Assembly (NCBI RefSeq): GCF_024498195.1
Contig: NZ_CP101824.1
Span: forward strand, 1 to 64,000
Direction of reading: 5' to 3'
DNA length: 64,000 bases
Source: Halovivax cerinus
GTDB lineage: Archaea > Halobacteriota > Halobacteria > Halobacteriales > Natrialbaceae
The position numbers and the translations under genes are program-made. Positions 46,822 through 61,544 of this stretch are shown here, in pieces (the stretch's first letter is position 1; each line of letters begins with the position of its first letter). The notes beneath the pieces are model-generated. The model was not told the DNA's origin, did no database searches, and saw only the letters and a program-made list of their open reading frames with translations.

Positions 46822-47825
46822 CGGCACCCGTATTCGCTCGCCGGTAGGTCGAGATCGGCCTCGTGGACGACCGGTCCTTCGAGGACGGCCCGTCGCTGGT
46901 CGTCGAACCGGACCAGCAACGTCCCGCCCGGCGGCCGGAGCGTCCACACGTCAGACGACGGACCGCGATCGAGCAGGGACGCGGCAGCGGCGATCGCGAC
47001 CGCGCCGGTGCCACACGCGTCGGTCTCGTCCTCGACGCCGCGTTCGTACGTCCGCTGGTCGAAGACGGGCGGATCGGACGCACCGTTCTCGGTGGCCGAC
47101 GCCGGACTGGCGAGCGTCACGTTCGCCCCGCGCGGGAACGCCCCCGCGTGCCGGATGATCGGACCGAGCCGGTCCAGGTCGACCGCGTCGACGTCCTCGA
47201 CGAAGGCGACGGCGTGGGGGACGCCAGTGTCGACGGCCGTGATCCGGAGGGAGTCGGTACTGACGACGACGTCGAGGACGTCCGCTTCGATCGAGGCGTC
47301 GGGCGCACGCTCGTCGTTCGACGGGTCGAGCGCGCGCTCGTCGAGCGATGGGACGAGTTCGTCGGCCGGCCGATCGACGACCGCTTCGTCGGCGCGGACG
47401 GGAACCGAATCCGGGTCGGCCGTCGGTCGGTCCAGTTCGACGGCGATCCGATCGGGCTCTTCGGCACCGGTGGGGACGCGCTCCGCCCGTCGCGACCCCG
47501 CCTGCGTGTCGATCATGACGGCGTCGGCCCCGGTTCGCTCCATCGTCCACGCGGCCGCACAGCGGGCACCGTTTCCGCACATCGGGGCGACGCTCCCGTC
47601 CGGTTGCACCAGCGTCATCACGACGCGCGGCGGCGCGAAGTCGGGTTCGAGTGCCAGGAAGAGAACGCCGTCGACGCCGAACCCGTCGTCCGGGTCACAG
47701 ACACGTCGGGCGAACGAGCGACGCTTCGAGACGGGTTCGTCGGCGTCCACTAGCAGGAAGTCGTTACCGGTCCCGTGATAGCGCGACGCCTCGATCGACT
47801 CGTGATCGGTCGCCATCGTGCTCAT
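46818..47825 (-). CDS. dapF: Diaminopimelate epimerase
   Basis: DapF converts LL- to meso-diaminopimelate with two Cys. Both catalytic loops are present: PMCGNGARC (about 82-90) and DACGTGAVA (about 270-278). It is 335 aa, longer than the bacterial 275, because of an acidic insert of about 50 residues (about 140-185). ATG overlaps the lysA TGA; TGA overlaps dapE. Confidence 0.95.
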   Translation of the reverse strand: MSTMATDHESIEASRYHGTGNDFLLVDADEPVSKRRSFARRVCDPDDGFGVDGVLFLALEPDFAPPRVVMTLVQPDGSVAPMCGNGARCAAAWTMERTGADAVMIDTQAGSRRAERVPTGAEEPDRIAVELDRPTADPDSVPVRADEAVVDRPADELVPSLDERALDPSNDERAPDASIEADVLDVVVSTDSLRITAVDTGVPHAVAFVEDVDAVDLDRLGPIIRHAGAFPRGANVTLASPASATENGASDPPVFDQRTYERGVEDETDACGTGAVAIAAAASLLDRGPSSDVWTLRPPGGTLLVRFDDQRRAVLEGPVVHEADLDLPASEYGCR

Positions 47826-49216
47826 TCGGCCACCCCCTCCCGGGCGGCCGCCTCCAGTCGCGTCAGGTCAGAGAGGGACTCGCGACGGCGGACGAGGCGC
47901 GAATCGGAGCCGTCGATCACGACCGTCGGCGGTCGCGGCCGGGAGTTGTACGTATTCGCCATTTCGGCGCCGTAGGCGCCAGCGTTGCCCACGGCGATGA
48001 CGTCGCCGCGCTCGAACCGAGGCGTCGGTCTGTCCACGCAGAGGACGTCCGAACTCTCACAGACCGGACCGGCCACCGTCTGTGGGACAGGTTCGCGGTC
48101 GGACGCGTCCGGGTCGAGCGAACGGAGCGCATGGTAGGCGTCGTACAGCGCGGGGCGGAGGAGAGTCGTCATGCCCGCGTCGATTCCGACGACGCGCGTC
48201 GCCGACGTCTCCTTGACCGTATTCACTTCGGTCAGGAGGACCCCGGCGTCGGCGACCAGGTACCGTCCCGGTTCGATGGAGAGGCACACGTCGAGGTCGG
48301 CGAACGCGTCGTGCGTCGTCTCGGCAACCGGATCGAGCGCGAGCGGCGGCTCGTCTTCGCGATACGGAACGCCGAAGCCGCCGCCGACGGAGACGAACTC
48401 GAGGGAGCCGACCGACTCGACGACCTCGGTCGCGAGGTCGGCGACGCGCGCGACGAATCTGCGGTGGGCCTCGCGCTGGTCGGCGTCGAGGACGCCAGAT
48501 CCGACGTGGGCGTGGAGACCGACCAGGTCGAAGCCCCGCTCCACGGCGTCGTGGGCCGTCTCCACGAGTCGCTCCGCCGGGATTCCGAACGTCGCGTCGC
48601 CGCCGGTTCGGACATTTTCGTGGTGGCCCGCGCCCACGCCGGGGTTGACGCGCAGGCAGAGACGGCCGTCGTACTCCAGGGCCGCGAGGCGCTCGACGGT
48701 GTCCCGAGCCCCGGCCGTGACCGTGAGTGTCGGGTCGTCTTTCCAGGCGTCGACGACGTACTCGAGGTCGCGTTCCGGTGGGTTCACCGCGGTGTAGCGG
48801 ATCCGATCCCCCGGGATGCCCGCCTCGCGGGCGCGATACACCTCGCCGGCCGACGCGCACTCGATAGTGGCACCGTTCGCGCAGACGATCCTGAGGAGAT
48901 CGACCAGCGCGTTCGCCTTCGCCGCGTAGGCGATCTCCGCGTCGGGAAACGCGCCCGCGAGGCGGCGGTAGTTCGCCTGGACGCGGTCGACGTCGAGAAC
49001 GTACAGCGGCGTTCCGTACTCGTCGGCGAGCGAGCGGAGTCGGTCCGCGTTCCAGTCGTCGAGCCGGCGAACGGGCGGGGAGTCGGTCGATCGGCGGCCG
49101 TGTGGTGAGTCGGCGGATCCGTGTACGGGTTGCGTGTCGGCCGACCGGCCAGCGGCTGCGGCGTCGTCGCCGAGAGACGCCGTCGGGTCGCCGTCATCGT
49201 CTCGCGAAGAAGTCAC
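47822..49216 (-). CDS. lysA: Diaminopimelate decarboxylase
   Basis: LysA produces lysine from meso-diaminopimelate with pyridoxal phosphate. The PLP lysine is in AYAAKANALVDLL, phosphate binding in GGGFGVPY and IEPGRYLVAD, and the substrate Cys in GPVCESSDVL. 464 aa with an acidic N-terminal tail of about 50 residues. The GTG start overlaps the dapD TGA (GTGA). Confidence 0.96.
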   Translation of the reverse strand: MTSSRDDDGDPTASLGDDAAAAGRSADTQPVHGSADSPHGRRSTDSPPVRRLDDWNADRLRSLADEYGTPLYVLDVDRVQANYRRLAGAFPDAEIAYAAKANALVDLLRIVCANGATIECASAGEVYRAREAGIPGDRIRYTAVNPPERDLEYVVDAWKDDPTLTVTAGARDTVERLAALEYDGRLCLRVNPGVGAGHHENVRTGGDATFGIPAERLVETAHDAVERGFDLVGLHAHVGSGVLDADQREAHRRFVARVADLATEVVESVGSLEFVSVGGGFGVPYREDEPPLALDPVAETTHDAFADLDVCLSIEPGRYLVADAGVLLTEVNTVKETSATRVVGIDAGMTTLLRPALYDAYHALRSLDPDASDREPVPQTVAGPVCESSDVLCVDRPTPRFERGDVIAVGNAGAYGAEMANTYNSRPRPPTVVIDGSDSRLVRRRESLSDLTRLEAAAREGVAE

Positions 49217-50052
49217 GACCGGAGCACCTCCTCGCGCTCCGTGGCCGCTATCGTCCGGTCTTCGAGGGCCGTCGCGACGACGGCCGGTTTGTACGCCCCG
49301 CCGTCGAAGAGGTCGTGGTCGCCCACCGAGGACGCCACGAATCGGGTGAACGCCCGGCGTTCCGGCGGCAACCGACCGTAGACGATCTCGTCCTCGACGA
49401 GGTCGTAGACCGGGATCCGGGGCGTGAGCAGCGTGTTCTCGCCGACGACGGAATCGGCGCCGACGACGAACCCGGAGGTCACGCGACAGCCGGCGCCGAG
49501 CGAGACGCCGTCCTCGATCACGACCGGCGCGTCCTCGACCGGTTCGAGGACGCCGCCGATCAACGCGTTCGCGCCGAGCTTGACGTCGCGGCCGATCTGG
49601 GCGCAGGAGCCGACGGTGTCACAGGAGTCGACGAGGGTGCCGTCGCCGACGTGCGCGCCCACGTTGACGAACGAGGGGCTCATCAGGATGCAATCCGCGC
49701 CGACGTGCGCGCCGCGGCGGACGACGGTCCCGTCCGGCGTGTTTCGGGTGCCGCGAGCGCCGTACTCGGCCGTCTCCGCCAGTTCCAGTACGTCGTTGTA
49801 CGTGACGTCGCCGTACTGGCGCGCCCTCGTCTCGCGGAGGGCGAAGGTCAGCAGGATGCCCCGCTTGACCCACTCGTTCGCCGCCCAGTCGCCGTCGCGT
49901 CGCTCCGCGGCGCGCACCACGCCGGTCTCCAGTGCATCGAGGAATTCGTCCAGGATGGCGAGGTCGCCCTCAGCCACCGTCCCGGCGTCGAGGTCGCCAG
50001 CGTCGTGGCGCCCCCAGAGCGATTCGACGTCGGATTCGAGCGTCGCGCTCAC
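49213..50052 (-). CDS. dapD: Tetrahydrodipicolinate N-succinyltransferase
   Basis: DapD transfers succinyl from succinyl-CoA, committing the pathway to the succinylase branch. The left-handed beta-helix part (about 100-230) shows hexapeptides such as GAHVGADCILMS, NVGAHVGDGTLVDSC, GRDVKLGANALIGG. The N-terminal helical domain has NEWVKRGILLTF. 279 aa. GTG start overlaps the dapB TGA. Operon position supports the assignment. Confidence 0.95.
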   Translation of the reverse strand: MSATLESDVESLWGRHDAGDLDAGTVAEGDLAILDEFLDALETGVVRAAERRDGDWAANEWVKRGILLTFALRETRARQYGDVTYNDVLELAETAEYGARGTRNTPDGTVVRRGAHVGADCILMSPSFVNVGAHVGDGTLVDSCDTVGSCAQIGRDVKLGANALIGGVLEPVEDAPVVIEDGVSLGAGCRVTSGFVVGADSVVGENTLLTPRIPVYDLVEDEIVYGRLPPERRAFTRFVASSVGDHDLFDGGAYKPAVVATALEDRTIAATEREEVLRS

Positions 50053-50858
50053 GCTTCGATCACCTCGGCGAAGTCGTACCAGCCCGGATCGCGGCCGGCG
50101 AGCCAGGCCGCGGCGTCGAGCGCACCCGCGGCGAAGATGCGCCGGTCGCCGGCGCGGTGGGTCAGTGTCACGTCCTCGCCGTCGCCAGCCAGCAGGAGTT
50201 CGTGTTCGCCGGCGATCGAGCCCGCCCGGACCGAGTGGACGCCGATCTCGTCGGGTTCTCGGGGTGCGTCGCCAGCCCTGCCGTGGACCCGTTCGGGTGC
50301 GCCGTCTCCCGTCGAGCGGGTGGTTTCGATCGTCTCGACGAGTCGGTTCGCCGTCCCGCTCGGGGCGTCGCGCTTGCCGTTGTGGTGGGTTTCGACGAGT
50401 TCGACGTCGTACCCGGGGAGGCGGCGGACCGCCTCGGCCACGAGGTGGTCGAGGACGGCGACGCCGCGCGAGAAGTTCGCGGCGTGTAAGAGCGGGGTCG
50501 ACTCGCTCGCTGCGCGGAGGGCCTCCCGCTGCGACGCGTCGAACCCCGTCGTCCCGGTGACGAACGGAACACCCGCATCGGCGCACGCCGCGGCGTAGCG
50601 GGTCGCCGGATTCGGGGCGGTGAAGTCCACGACCGCGTGGGGTTCGCGTTCGACCGCGAGCGCGTCGAGATCCGCGTCGGGATCGACGTCGGTCTCCGCG
50701 ACGCGCTCGTCGGGCGAGCGAGCGACGGCGAAGACGACCTCGACGGCGGGCCGTTCGGCCGCGGCGGCGAGCACCTCCCGACCCATGCGACCGGTCGCAC
50801 CGGTGACGCCGAGTCGGAGGACGCCAGGCACCCCGTCGTCGGACGCGGTCGCCGTCAC
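50049..50858 (-). CDS. dapB: 4-hydroxy-tetrahydrodipicolinate reductase
   Basis: DapB reduces the DapA product with NAD(P)H. The coenzyme loop is GVTGATGRMGREV, the active site is ETHHNGKRDAPSGTA with catalytic His and Lys, and GTTGFD follows. 269 aa. The start is GTG, 7 bases after a perfect Shine-Dalgarno GGAGGTGA (50865-50872). The stop of a 26-codon mini-ORF overlaps the GTG. Confidence 0.95.
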   Translation of the reverse strand: MTATASDDGVPGVLRLGVTGATGRMGREVLAAAAERPAVEVVFAVARSPDERVAETDVDPDADLDALAVEREPHAVVDFTAPNPATRYAAACADAGVPFVTGTTGFDASQREALRAASESTPLLHAANFSRGVAVLDHLVAEAVRRLPGYDVELVETHHNGKRDAPSGTANRLVETIETTRSTGDGAPERVHGRAGDAPREPDEIGVHSVRAGSIAGEHELLLAGDGEDVTLTHRAGDRRIFAAGALDAAAWLAGRDPGWYDFAEVIEA

Positions 50859-50935
50859 GACAGGTCACCTCCGCGGTCGGAGGAATCGGCCGGTGCGGGG
50901 CGAACGCCGTCGCCGCCGGCTACATCGGCCGTCAC
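50855..50935 (-). CDS. Mini-ORF linking dapA and dapB
   Basis: A 26-codon GTG frame starts in the dapA stop (GTGA at 50932-50935) and ends in the dapB start (TCGTGACG). It is preceded by its own GGAGGTGA (50943-50950), a copy of the dapB ribosome-binding region 78 bases away. The peptide would read VTADVAGGDGVRPAPADSSD and then RGGDLS. It may serve coupling more than product. Expression is not shown by sequence. Confidence 0.4.
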   Translation of the reverse strand: MTADVAGGDGVRPAPADSSDRGGDLS

Positions 50936-51852
50936 GGAGCGTTCACCTCCGCGGTCGTCGCGTCCGCACCGTCGTACGCGTCGAGCACCGATTCCAGGCG
51001 GTCACGATTCTCCGGGGCGAGCCGGGTGAGCGGTGCACGCAGGTGCGGTGGGTAGTCCTCGCGTATCGCGAGTGCCTCGGTGACCGGAATCGGATTCGTC
51101 TCGCAGAACAGGGCGCGAAAGAGCGGTCCGAGATCGTGGTGACGCGTTCGAGCGCGCTCTACGTCGCCGTCGAGCGCGGCGTCGACCATCGCGACGGTGC
51201 GTTCGGGTTCGACGTTCGCGGCGACGCTGATCGCGCCGGCGCCGCCGACCGCACAGATCGGGAGCGTGAGCGCGTCGTCACCGGAGAGGACGGCGAACGC
51301 CTCGTCTCGAGTTCGCTCGACGATCTCGCCGATCGCGTTCAGGTCGCCCTCGGCGGCCTTGTAGCCCGCGACGTTCGGGTGAGACGCGAGGTCGACGACG
51401 GTGTCGGGCTCGATCGTCTGGCCAGTTCGGGAGGGAACGTTGTAGACGATCTGTGGCAGGTCGACCGCATCGGCGATCGTCAGGTAGTGTTCGCGGAGGC
51501 CGCCTTGTTCGGGCCTGTTGTAGTACGGCGAGATGAGCAGGAGGGCATCGGCGCCGGCCGCCGCGGCGCGTTCGGAGAGAGCGAGCGCCTCGCGCGTGCT
51601 GTTCGAGCCACTGCCGGCGATCACGGGGACGTCGTCGACGGCGTCGACGACAGCCTCCACGACCCGGACGTGTTCGTCGTGGGTGAGCGTCGCGGACTCG
51701 CCCGTCGACCCGACGGGCACGAGACCGGCGACGCCGGCCGCTTCGAGGCGGCGGGCGTCGGCGCGGAGCGTTTCGAAGTCGATGCGGTCGTCGGCGTCGA
51801 ACGGCGTACACATCGCCGGGAAGACGCCGGTGAGGTCGAAGTCGTGTGTCAT
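50932..51852 (-). CDS. dapA: 4-hydroxy-tetrahydrodipicolinate synthase
   Basis: DapA condenses pyruvate and aspartate semialdehyde, the first lysine-specific step. TIM-barrel features: TPFDADDRIDFETL, the GSTGESATLTHDEH loop, the conserved Tyr in SPYYNRPEQGGL and the Schiff-base Lys in VAGYKAAEGDL (about residue 165). 306 aa. It heads dapA-dapB-dapD-lysA-dapF-dapE. A long structured leader with a short Lys/Phe-rich ORF precedes it. Confidence 0.96.
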   Translation of the reverse strand: MTHDFDLTGVFPAMCTPFDADDRIDFETLRADARRLEAAGVAGLVPVGSTGESATLTHDEHVRVVEAVVDAVDDVPVIAGSGSNSTREALALSERAAAAGADALLLISPYYNRPEQGGLREHYLTIADAVDLPQIVYNVPSRTGQTIEPDTVVDLASHPNVAGYKAAEGDLNAIGEIVERTRDEAFAVLSGDDALTLPICAVGGAGAISVAANVEPERTVAMVDAALDGDVERARTRHHDLGPLFRALFCETNPIPVTEALAIREDYPPHLRAPLTRLAPENRDRLESVLDAYDGADATTAEVNAP

Positions 51853-51867
51853 CTGGGTGGTGGCTTG

Positions 51868-51883
51868 CGGGACCGAAGTCCCG
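51868..51883 (-). promoter_or_regulatory. UUCG hairpin in the dapA leader
   Basis: On the minus strand CGGGAC-TTCG-GTCCCG forms a 6-bp stem closed by a UUCG tetraloop, ending 15 bases before the dapA ATG. It would be very stable in RNA and near the ribosome entry site. Confidence 0.55.
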
Positions 51884-51910
51884 GGTTCGCGAGAGCGTGT
51901 CCCGCGGTCA

Positions 51911-52012
51911 CCGGATCGGGTGCCGAGAGAGGCCACCGATCCGACGAGTACAGTTCGAAGAACCCGCACCGCGCGGGTCCGGTCGGTTCGAATCCGATCC
52001 GGGTGCACCCGG
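51911..52012 (-). promoter_or_regulatory. Alternative stems in the dapA leader
   Basis: In RNA order: palindrome CCGGGTGCACCCGG (51999-52012), segment A CCGGATCGG (51994-52002), a small hairpin (51963-51977), segment B CGGATCGG (51936-51943) and segment C CCGATCCGG (51911-51919). C can pair with A (9 bp) or B (8 bp) but not both, as in attenuators. CGATCG-type words are common in this genome, so chance must be considered. Confidence 0.4.
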
Positions 52013-52041
52013 GACGGGGACGCCACGCCCGCCCAGAGCGC

Positions 52042-52131
52042 TCAGGAGAAGAATTTTTTGCCGAATTTGGCAAACGTACCGCCGATTGTGCCGCGATGGC
52101 GGTCGACGAAGACGTCACTCACGACCGGCAT
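52042..52131 (-). CDS. Candidate Lys/Phe-rich leader peptide of the lysine operon
   Basis: A 29-codon ATG frame upstream of dapA reads MPVVSDVFVDRHRG and ends TFAKFGKKFFS, with three Lys codons (all AAA) and four Phe codons in the last ten. Haloarchaeal proteins are Lys-poor, so the cluster is striking. It stops 189 bases before dapA, followed by the alternative stems. A TATA-like CTCATATGG lies 56 bases upstream. The AT-rich part can also be read as the operon's own promoter, so coding is not certain. Confidence 0.35.
   Translation of the reverse strand: MPVVSDVFVDRHRGTIGGTFAKFGKKFFS
52051..52074 (-). promoter_or_regulatory. AT-rich palindrome in the dapA upstream region
   Basis: TTTGCC and GGCAAA are perfect 6-base arms around GAATTT (52057-52074), next to AAAAAATTC on the minus strand. 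This could be an operator over a dapA TATA box, or simply the AAA/TTC codons of the candidate leader peptide. Confidence 0.35.
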
Positions 52132-52500
52132 CGAACGGGTGTGAGCGACGCGTTGCACGGTGCGTACATTTCGTCCCACCCATATGAGTATTGTGCTGGT
52201 CACCGTTTTTGCACCCGCCGGGCCGGCGACCGATCGTGACACCGGTCGGCTGGTCGACATCCTCCCACGGCTGAAGCTGTGAGCGGGCTCCTCGTATCGC
52301 TGTACACACTCGACGACGGTCCGACCGGTCGACGGTACCGGCGGATCAGCGGCAGTGCCGTCGCGCCGAGCCGGTCGATACCGTCCCGTCCGTCACGACT
52401 CCTCCGGACCAGCGGCGACCAGCCGCTCGTCGAGAGTGGATGCGATCGGTTCACACGCCGCACCGCCGAACTTATGGCTCTCGCTTACCTATTCCCGTCC
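52132..52500. other. Intergenic region between the lysine leader and htpX
   Basis: No acidic frame is seen. It holds the IS605-like hairpin remnant (52259-52281) and, at its right end, the htpX promoter (CGAACTTATGG, centred 29 bases before ATG). Confidence 0.4.
52259..52281 (+). mobile_element. Second solo IS200/IS605-like end hairpin
   Basis: ATCCTCCCACGGCTGAAGCT continues into GTG; CACGGC and GCTGTG pair (one G-T) around TGAA. The motif TCCTCCCACGGCTGA is shared with the copy at 26.19 kb (minus strand). No transposase gene is nearby. Confidence 0.45.
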
Positions 52501-53325
52501 ATGACAGACGTCGGATTGAAAGTGCGGATGGTCGTCGTCGGCGCCATCCTGTTCGGGTTCTACCTGGCCACTGCGACGGTCGTCGCAGCGGCGACCGGGT
52601 TCAACCTGTTTATCGTCCTCGCCGCCGGTCTCCTGGTCGTTCCCCCGATCCAGTACAAGATCGGCAAGTGGATGGCCCTGCGCGGCGCCGAAGACATGCC
52701 CGAGACCGGCCGCTACCAGCGCGTCCACCACATGACCGACTCGCTCGCCCGGGACATGGGCCTCTCGAACGTCCGCCTGATGAAACAGGGGATGGGCGTC
52801 CCGAACGCCTTCGCCGTCGGTCGGAAGGGCGCCGGCGTCGTGGTCGTCTCCGAGGAACTGATGGCGATCCTCGACGAGGACGAACTCGAGGGTGTCATCG
52901 CCCACGAGCTCGCCCACATCAAGAACCGCGACGTGATCACGATGGTCGTCGGCCAGTCAATCGGCATGATCGTCGGGTACGCCGCGTACTTCGCCGTCCT
53001 CTTCGGCGGCGAGCGAAACATCGGTTCGTGGATCCTGGCGATGGTCGCCTCCCAGCTCGCGAACCTGCTCGTGATGGTCTTCGTGATGGCCATCTCCCGG
53101 TACCGCGAGTACGCCGCCGACGAAGACGCGAAGGAAGCCATCGGAAGCGGCGAACCCCTCGCACGCGCGCTCCAGAAGATCTCCGCGGGCGCCGAGGGAC
53201 GCGAGCAACAGACCAACGACACCGTCGCCGCCCTCTGTATCTTCAACGCCGACCGCAGCCTGCTCCAGCGAATCCTCTCGACACACCCGCCGACCGAAAA
53301 GCGGATCGCGAAGCTACGGAACTGA
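52501..53325 (+). CDS. htpX: HtpX-like membrane zinc metalloprotease (M48)
   Basis: An integral membrane protease for quality control of membrane proteins. Two hydrophobic segments at the N-terminus (about 5-50), zinc motif HELAHIKNRD (about 137-146), two further helices (about 150-205), and the third ligand Glu in REYAADEDAKEAI. 274 aa. The ATG is leaderless, 29 bases after CTTATGG. Length and layout are typical of archaeal HtpX. Confidence 0.95.
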   Translation: MTDVGLKVRMVVVGAILFGFYLATATVVAAATGFNLFIVLAAGLLVVPPIQYKIGKWMALRGAEDMPETGRYQRVHHMTDSLARDMGLSNVRLMKQGMGVPNAFAVGRKGAGVVVVSEELMAILDEDELEGVIAHELAHIKNRDVITMVVGQSIGMIVGYAAYFAVLFGGERNIGSWILAMVASQLANLLVMVFVMAISRYREYAADEDAKEAIGSGEPLARALQKISAGAEGREQQTNDTVAALCIFNADRSLLQRILSTHPPTEKRIAKLRN

Positions 53326-60233: not shown

Positions 60234-61544
60234 ATGGAGACACGAATGCTACGGTCGGGTCTCCGGTCGGTCCGCGGCGCGTTCGCCGTGGACCGTCGGG
60301 TCTTCGCGCTCGCGTTCGCCCGGCTCGCTGACGGCATCGGCAACTCGTTCCTGATCATCGTGATCCCGCCGTACGTCGCGAGCAGCGTGGTCGGCGGGCC
60401 GACGTTTGGCCTCACCGAGGCGATGATCATCGGAGTCATTCTCTCGCTGTACGGCCTGCTCAACAGCCTCTTTCAGCCGTTTACGGGACGACTGTCCGAC
60501 AGCAGGGGCGCACGGAAGCGATTCATCCTGGTGGGACTGGCAGGACTGGCGACCACCAACTTCCTCTACCTGTTCGCCGGGTCGTACCTCTCGCTGGTCG
60601 TCCTTCGGGCGTTGCAGGGGGTGAGTATCGCGTTCATCGTGCCCACGTCGGTCGCGCTGGTCAACGAACTGGCGACGGCCGGCGACCGCGGCGGGAACAT
60701 GGGCGTCTACAACACGTTCAGGCTCGTCGGCTTCGGCGCGGGCCCGGTCGCCGCAGGCGCCGTCGTCGCCGGCGGGCCGTACGCACTTTCGGTCGGCGAC
60801 TCGGCGGTGACGATCAGCGGCTTCGAGGCGACGTTCCTGATCGCGACGGTGACGGCGCTGATCAGTCTCGCGATGGTCGCCACGCTGATCACCGATCCGT
60901 CGGACATCGAGCGGCGAGCGGGCGGCGCGCCGTCTCTCTCCCTCGGCGATCCACGCGGGCAGAACGTGCTCAATCCTGTGATCACGCTCGGCCTCGCCAC
61001 GCTGTTCATGATGATCGGTATCTCGATCTTCGCGACGCTTCAGAACACCGTCAACGCGCGACTCGATCAGGCGTCGACCTGGTTCGGCCTGCAGTTCTCG
61101 GCGTTCGTCATCGCCCAGATCGTCCTCCAGACGCCGATCGGTCGCGCGAGCGATCGGTTCGGCCGACGGCCGTTCATCCTCGCCGGAATGATCGTCCTGG
61201 TTCCGACGACGCTGGTCCAGGGGTTCGTCGGGACGTCGCTCGCGATGTTCGTCGCCAGAATCGGACAGGGGGTCGCCGGTGCGATGGTGTTCGCGCCGGC
61301 GCTGGCGCTCGCCGGCGATCTGGCCCCCGAGGGGGAGTCCGGGACGACGCTGTCGGTCCTGACGATGGCGTTCGGGTTCGGCATCGCCATCGGGCCGCTC
61401 ATCTCGGGCTTCCTGGTCGGGATCGACTTCGCCGTCCCGTTCGTCTTCGCCGCCGGACTGGCCGCGATCGGCGCCGTCCTCGTCGCGACGCAGGTCGACG
61501 AGACCCTGGATCGAGAGGGTGCCCCAACGGCCGCCGCCGAGTGA
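60234..61544 (+). CDS. Major facilitator superfamily transporter
   Basis: A 436 aa transporter with 12 membrane helices in two bundles. Signature loops are PFTGRLSDSRGARKRF (between helices 2 and 3) and TPIGRASDRFGRRPFILAG (between 8 and 9). It probably exports drugs or metabolites by proton exchange; the substrate is unknown. ATG is chosen by family N-terminus (RVFALAFARLADGIGNSFL). It is alone. Confidence 0.9.
   Translation: METRMLRSGLRSVRGAFAVDRRVFALAFARLADGIGNSFLIIVIPPYVASSVVGGPTFGLTEAMIIGVILSLYGLLNSLFQPFTGRLSDSRGARKRFILVGLAGLATTNFLYLFAGSYLSLVVLRALQGVSIAFIVPTSVALVNELATAGDRGGNMGVYNTFRLVGFGAGPVAAGAVVAGGPYALSVGDSAVTISGFEATFLIATVTALISLAMVATLITDPSDIERRAGGAPSLSLGDPRGQNVLNPVITLGLATLFMMIGISIFATLQNTVNARLDQASTWFGLQFSAFVIAQIVLQTPIGRASDRFGRRPFILAGMIVLVPTTLVQGFVGTSLAMFVARIGQGVAGAMVFAPALALAGDLAPEGESGTTLSVLTMAFGFGIAIGPLISGFLVGIDFAVPFVFAAGLAAIGAVLVATQVDETLDREGAPTAAAE

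Follow-up and report, generated by a model that had tools for sequence, protein, structure and literature searches.

The lysine operon and the leader in front of it

The window, by which we mean the whole stretch of 64,000 nucleotides of Halovivax cerinus DNA that was analysed, carries on its minus strand the operon dapA-dapB-dapD-lysA. The identities of the genes come from curated equivalog models: dapA (50935-51852), which encodes 4-hydroxy-tetrahydrodipicolinate synthase, matches TIGR00674 with 317 bits (cut-off 206), dapB (50049-50858) matches TIGR00036 with 217 bits (cut-off 122), dapD (49213-50061, with an approximate 5' end) matches NF008808 with 268 bits (cut-off 204), and lysA (47822-49216), which encodes diaminopimelate decarboxylase, matches TIGR01048 with 359 bits (cut-off 298). 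A similar dap cluster forms the predicted lysine pathway of Natrinema gari J7-2, a related haloarchaeon (PMC10433800).

The region upstream of dapA had originally been described as an attenuator-like leader, beginning with a 29-codon ORF that ends in TFAKFGKKFFS and contains three AAA codons, in a genome whose proteins are poor in lysine. The ORF is present on the minus strand and ends at 52042, and lysine accounts for 0.9% of the codons in a set of 41 window genes picked by a simple acidic-protein heuristic. The three AAA codons (52068-52066, 52059-52057 and 52056-52054) belong to the cluster AAA TTC GGC AAA AAA at 52054-52068. The length of the ORF needs revision, because homologous ORFs in other genomes start further upstream and a TATA-like box is located about 27 nt before that position; comparison suggests that the start is probably the GTG at 52158 and not the ATG at 52131. 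The leader ORF would then occupy 52042-52158 and encode 38 amino acids (M(V)QRVAHTRSMPVVSDVFVDRHRGTIGGTFAKFGKKFFS), with the lysine cluster at codons 31 to 35. No Pfam match to the ORF was found.

The GTG is preceded by a BRE/TATA-like promoter element (AGCACAATACTCATATGG, 52180-52197, minus strand). In a profile of 155 loci aligned on the start codon, in which homologous ORFs have the same position with respect to the promoter, this element extends from -37 to -24, with a C at -37, AA at -34/-33 and an ATAAGT-like box at -29 to -24. A box at this distance leads one to expect the haloarchaeal transcript to start on or beside the start codon, which suggests that the leader ORF is probably leaderless and begins at the expected transcription start. 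Leaderless transcripts make up about 70% of the total in two model halophiles (PMC8303175). The position that the promoter defines is occupied by a start codon in 158 of 161 loci, a count that is mildly circular because the profile was trained on those same starts, and in 145 of these 158 the codon is in frame with the lysine cluster. A transcription start downstream of 52042, closer to dapA, is unsupported, as no promoter is conserved just before the gene: the profile of the spacer in 160 loci contains no conserved A+T-rich box.

Just upstream of the leader promoter, about 45 bp (52256-52300, CTCCCACGGCTGAAGC...) match six other places in the same genome with 82-91% identity; the repeat resembles what we take to be the end of an IS200/IS605-type element. 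Elsewhere in the window, at 60673-60767 on the plus strand, ARAGORN reports a tRNA-Cys with the anticodon aca, the usual anticodon for Cys being gca; this is probably a false or unusual call.

Conservation of the leader ORF and its lysine codons

We compared the dapA upstream regions of 162 loci from nine haloarchaeal families, 108 from the Natrialbaceae, to which the window belongs, and 54 spread over eight further families of the class. In 151 of the 162 loci there is a short ORF that has two or more lysine codons near its end (145 plus six in which the frame runs on into the hairpin described below), and at least two lysines fall within the last eight codons in 145 of 161. Lysine in these leaders is confined almost entirely to positions -3 to -6 from the stop, and the same endings recur throughout the class (PRFPKRKRV, FLKKRV, LLKKRA and SKKRAY, each followed by the stop codon). 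Given the lysine frequency in the window, such a cluster is expected by chance in 0.2% of ORFs. A few dapA loci have only one lysine in the leader, and no element is visible in front of the dapA of Haloquadratum.

The lysine codons of the leaders are also unusual in their composition. The ratio of AAA to AAG is 293:28 in the leaders, compared to 33:89 in the window genes, selected with the same heuristic, and 4:133 in the dapA genes (Fisher p = 2e-40 and 6e-81, respectively, p values that ignore shared ancestry). Programmed frameshifting at AAAAAA was considered and rejected, because many leaders read AAA CGN AAA, so that a slippery site is not conserved.

Conservation across the class together with the basic C-terminus (KRKRV or KKRA) could indicate that the ORF encodes a functional small protein that acts in trans. 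However, the N-terminal two thirds of the peptide vary without the constraint expected of a coding sequence: in 57 family leaders of equal length variation is greatest at the second codon positions and conservation is confined to the end, a pattern that speaks against a working small protein. Nor would the function of a protein demand the strong preference for AAA. With the spacing of the lysine codons, which in the stop-shifted lineages described below is kept relative to the hairpin and not to the C-terminus, these observations make a trans-acting peptide very unlikely.

The first part of the leader ORF contains an inverted repeat at the level of the family, which could form a stem between CGTCGCTCAC (52150-52141) and GTGAGTGACG (52122-52113; feature 52113-52150, minus strand). 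Across the 12 pairs of this stem in 103 family loci we counted 88 cells in which both partners had changed, compared to 28.4 +/- 4.4 in shuffled alignments (maximum 39). One could assume that this palindrome (GTCGCTCAC/GTGAGCGAC) is a DNA operator that binds a repressor, and that the remainder of the element is incidental. In the window's family the repeat lies near the site where transcription is predicted to start, which fits such a role, and operator-like palindromes do occur in haloarchaeal trpC upstream regions: when trpC (IGPS) was examined for a comparable leader rich in Trp codons, just two sporadic W-rich ORFs turned up among 25 loci and the idea was rejected, while four trpC/IGPS upstream regions (L287, L292, L297 and L304) contain a GTAC...GTAC palindrome just before the start codon and no Trp leader. 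However, the stem in the dapA leader tolerates many U-G pairs and has changed on both sides, and therefore it is more likely to act as RNA than as a DNA operator. Outside the family the folding of the ORF is weak (mean z -0.8), and an operator would leave the lysine codons, the AAA bias and the hairpin after the stop codon unexplained. We consider a repressor site improbable to about the same degree as the small protein.

The hairpin after the ORF and its distance from the lysine codons

Directly after the stop codon of the leader ORF begins a hairpin (52005-52041, minus strand) with a predicted folding energy of -23.9 kcal/mol. It consists of the stems P1 (52041-52036/52010-52005) and P2 (52032-52028/52018-52014) and an apical loop with a URGC motif. 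We found the hairpin in 161 of the 162 loci, six of the 161 having been missed by the profile and placed by hand, and it also stands before dapA in three more families, which were represented by draft genomes; one of the 17 f3 loci is without it. The consensus is GUGCUCG/CGGGCGC for P1, a 2x2 internal loop, GCGRG/CYCGU for P2, and the URGC loop. In an alignment of 56 diverse sequences 92.9% of the cells are paired, compared to 39-52% in controls with a slid register, and 73 cells are changed on both sides, whereas shuffled alignments gave 22.8 +/- 3.9 and never reached this number (0 of 500). All six pairs of P1 and all five of P2 are kept in the window and in three congeners (4 of 4 sequences). 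An alternative pairing, in which the CUCG and CGGG segments form two small hairpins, was rejected, as it is not kept where P1 becomes CUGC/GCAG.

The original prediction turned on whether relatives conserve the ORF, its lysine codons and a covarying RNA stem; all three are kept across the class, and the covarying stem is this hairpin, which that prediction had left unremarked. Searched with a covariance model, the window's own genome yields a single strong copy (E 6.3e-8; the next match has E 0.17), and 61 relatives yield about one strong match per genome, located at dapA, with none in the congener that is without a close dapA homologue. The weak additional matches that we inspected as possible copies before other operons resemble coding sequence, and none follows a lysine-rich leader ORF. 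A search of 197 genomes from the phylum gave nothing at E <= 0.001 outside the order. Judged by these searches, the hairpin is single-copy and limited to dapA. The congener without a close dapA homologue, G004, is also without the hairpin; the DAP pathway to lysine may be missing or replaced in this organism.

The conserved loop (98 copies with UGGC and 55 with UAGC) might suggest a small riboswitch or a tRNA sensor comparable to the lysine riboswitch or the T-box, in which UGGC would face the GCCA end of a tRNA. However, a structure of 37 nt and 12 pairs leaves little room for a ligand pocket, the UAGC found in a third of the copies would mispair with CCA, and no Rfam lysine riboswitch or T-box matched up to E 5 in 51000-53000, nor was any other Rfam family significant at the locus. 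We regard direct sensing by the hairpin as highly improbable. The bacterial lysine riboswitch (L box) likewise controls lysine biosynthesis genes in cis, but the element described here has no Rfam match and would sense lysine through lysine codons and a small hairpin, not through a ligand-binding RNA.

The last lysine codon stands at a set distance from the hairpin: its first base lies 14-15 nt from the base of P1 in 119 of 145 loci, as it does in the window, where 15 nt separate 52056 from 52041. In five loci from two groups of Natrinema and Natronococcus (L073, L079, L080, L094 and L103) the ORF has lost its usual stop codon and extends to a UAG within the hairpin loop, but the lysine codon still stands 14 nt from P1; in L192, which has a similar stop-shifted leader, the distance is 23 nt. 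Retention of the 14-nt spacing despite the loss of the stop links the lysine codons with the hairpin; it also indicates that a ribosome that is not starved opens the hairpin. In bacterial toeprints the front edge of the ribosome lies about 12-13 nt from the A-site codon. With a footprint of this size, the ribosome would halt just before P1 while it waits for Lys-tRNA, whereas once it had reached the stop codon the 5' arm of P1 would lie beneath it.

Between the hairpin and dapA extends a spacer (51853-52004, minus strand in the window; 40-211 nt from hairpin to dapA start across loci) that is species-specific and G-poor, and C/A-rich near dapA (160 loci). It has no promoter of its own and no Shine-Dalgarno sequence; the latter is absent before dapA in 157 of 160 loci, with motifs resembling it in the other 3. 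At least four T within about 40 nt after the hairpin, as expected of a U-run terminator, occur in only 10 of 160 copies. The top covarying columns include no conserved alternative pairing, and no conserved pairing between the hairpin and the start of dapA was found.

The structures to which regulation had originally been attributed all reside in this spacer. Segment C (51911-51919) is indeed complementary to A over 9 bp and to B over 8 bp, but complementarity of this kind is at the level of chance: in shuffles of the 190-nt region that preserve dinucleotides, a perfect inverted repeat of 8 bp turns up at least once in 49% of cases and one of 9 bp in 20%, so that in a GC-rich region A:C and B:C are weak evidence. 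The three congeners keep 7, 5 and 3 of the 9 A:C pairs and 4, 4 and 2 of the 8 B:C pairs. Similarly, the UUCG hairpin (GGGAC-UUCG-GUCCC, 51869-51882) is present 16 nt before the ATG of dapA, but the congeners keep 2, 0 and 0 of its 5 pairs. The overall arrangement proposed for attenuation therefore survives in part: a leader peptide with clustered lysine codons precedes dapA-dapB-dapD-lysA, while the competing stems and the UUCG hairpin are peculiar to the species. A classical bacterial-type attenuator, with competition among A, B and C and a terminator hairpin in front of dapA, could form in the window sequence; however, it is contradicted by the comparison. In addition, the UUCG hairpin is not followed by a U-run, and intrinsic termination in Archaea is described as driven by poly-U and independent of hairpins (PMC7289017). 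The terminator/antiterminator layout known from bacteria finds no counterpart here, and we think it scarcely plausible as an explanation of the locus. A scan for bacterial-type promoters and terminators gave a single terminator-like match, within the ORF and near chance level.

The spacer also contains, at 51983-51999 on the plus strand, a sequence resembling a tRNA T-arm (GTCGGTTCGAATCCGAT). It was considered as a remnant of a tRNA or an att site and rejected, since ARAGORN predicts no tRNA at the locus and a DNA search of the genome itself returned no second copy.

A putative lysine attenuator and its relation to known systems

Comparison established the ORF, its lysine codons, their spacing, the hairpin, the position of the promoter and the restriction to dapA; from these we infer translation of the leader, stalling on the lysine codons, the sign of the response (folded in starvation) and its output. 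We consider it quite probable that 52005-52158 on the minus strand is a ribosome-mediated attenuator that responds to lysine and controls dapA-dapB-dapD-lysA, whatever its output. Transcription would start at the first codon of the 38-codon leader ORF, which would be translated as it emerges. With sufficient charged Lys-tRNA, ribosomes would reach the stop codon, or in some species continue into the hairpin, and their footprint would cover and open the 5' arm of P1. When charged Lys-tRNA is short, a ribosome would wait on a lysine codon with its front edge just before P1, and the hairpin would stay folded. The folded hairpin would thus be the starvation signal that permits expression of the operon, a sign that follows from the bacterial footprint geometry and the assumption that lysine shortage induces the operon.

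Neither an alternative structure nor a U-run that would convert the state of the hairpin into expression is conserved. The hairpin itself is probably not a terminator, given that a U-run accompanies just 10 of 160 copies and that intrinsic termination in Archaea reportedly does not depend on hairpins (PMC7289017). This, the G-poor, C/A-rich composition of the spacer, and the exposure to FttA attributed to untranslated archaeal RNA (PMC12548453) lead us to think that the output is more probably regulation of transcription across the untranslated spacer, possibly through FttA-type termination, than control of translation or mRNA stability. In its complete form, a class-wide archaeal attenuator without a terminator hairpin, in which the position of the ribosome on the lysine codons sets the fold of the hairpin and so decides whether RNA polymerase passes the spacer, perhaps via FttA, a termination factor of Archaea, we propose this model only tentatively, as a little short of an even chance.

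The main rival on output retains the same leader and sensor hairpin but lets them act on translation or on the stability of the mRNA; it is a variant of ribosome-mediated sensing and does not exclude it. The frequent lack of a Shine-Dalgarno sequence at dapA, the G-poor spacer in front of the gene, and the absence of a conserved terminator would all be compatible with such an output. However, the hairpin is separated from the dapA start by a variable distance and has no conserved pairing to it, and in H. volcanii coupling by termination and reinitiation achieves little or nothing at spacings above 30 nt (PMC12548453). We consider an output of this kind possible but less probable than control of transcription in the spacer.

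Ribosome-mediated attenuation as proposed here resembles the bacterial trp, his, thr and ilv attenuators, in which a leader ORF with clustered codons for the amino acid product and an RNA fold that depends on the ribosome precede a biosynthetic operon. At the dapA loci the leader ORF is conserved directly upstream of the operon, its lysine codons exceed chance, and a covarying structure lies within reach of a stalled ribosome; mutually exclusive antiterminator and terminator structures are not conserved, and most copies lack a U-run intrinsic terminator before the first gene. In contrast to the bacterial systems, the ORF is archaeal and apparently leaderless, a single nested hairpin follows it without a conserved terminator/antiterminator pair or U-run, and the lysine codons come after the first stem in the ORF and not inside it. 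As far as its anatomy can be read from the sequence, the element works like an attenuator, on present evidence not of the classical terminator-based kind. It also recalls leader peptides that act through Rho or through arrest (tnaC-type and ermC-type), where the position of the ribosome decides the fate of the downstream RNA and an untranslated C-rich stretch follows. However, the peptide described here is conserved just in its terminal Lys/Arg stretch and would therefore not be a sequence-specific arrest peptide, and Archaea, to our knowledge, lack Rho.

Leader-peptide attenuation is a textbook mechanism of bacteria. Full-text literature searches found no characterised archaeal case, although absence from such searches is no proof of absence; one paper describing a tool mentions archaea in a general sentence (PMC10219788). 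If the proposed mechanism is correct, translation would govern early stages of gene expression in Archaea as well, in organisms that use leaderless mRNAs and lack Rho. Haloferax species, which are genetically tractable, carry the leader and hairpin, and the element could thus provide a natural lysine-switchable reporter for the coupling of translation and transcription in Archaea.
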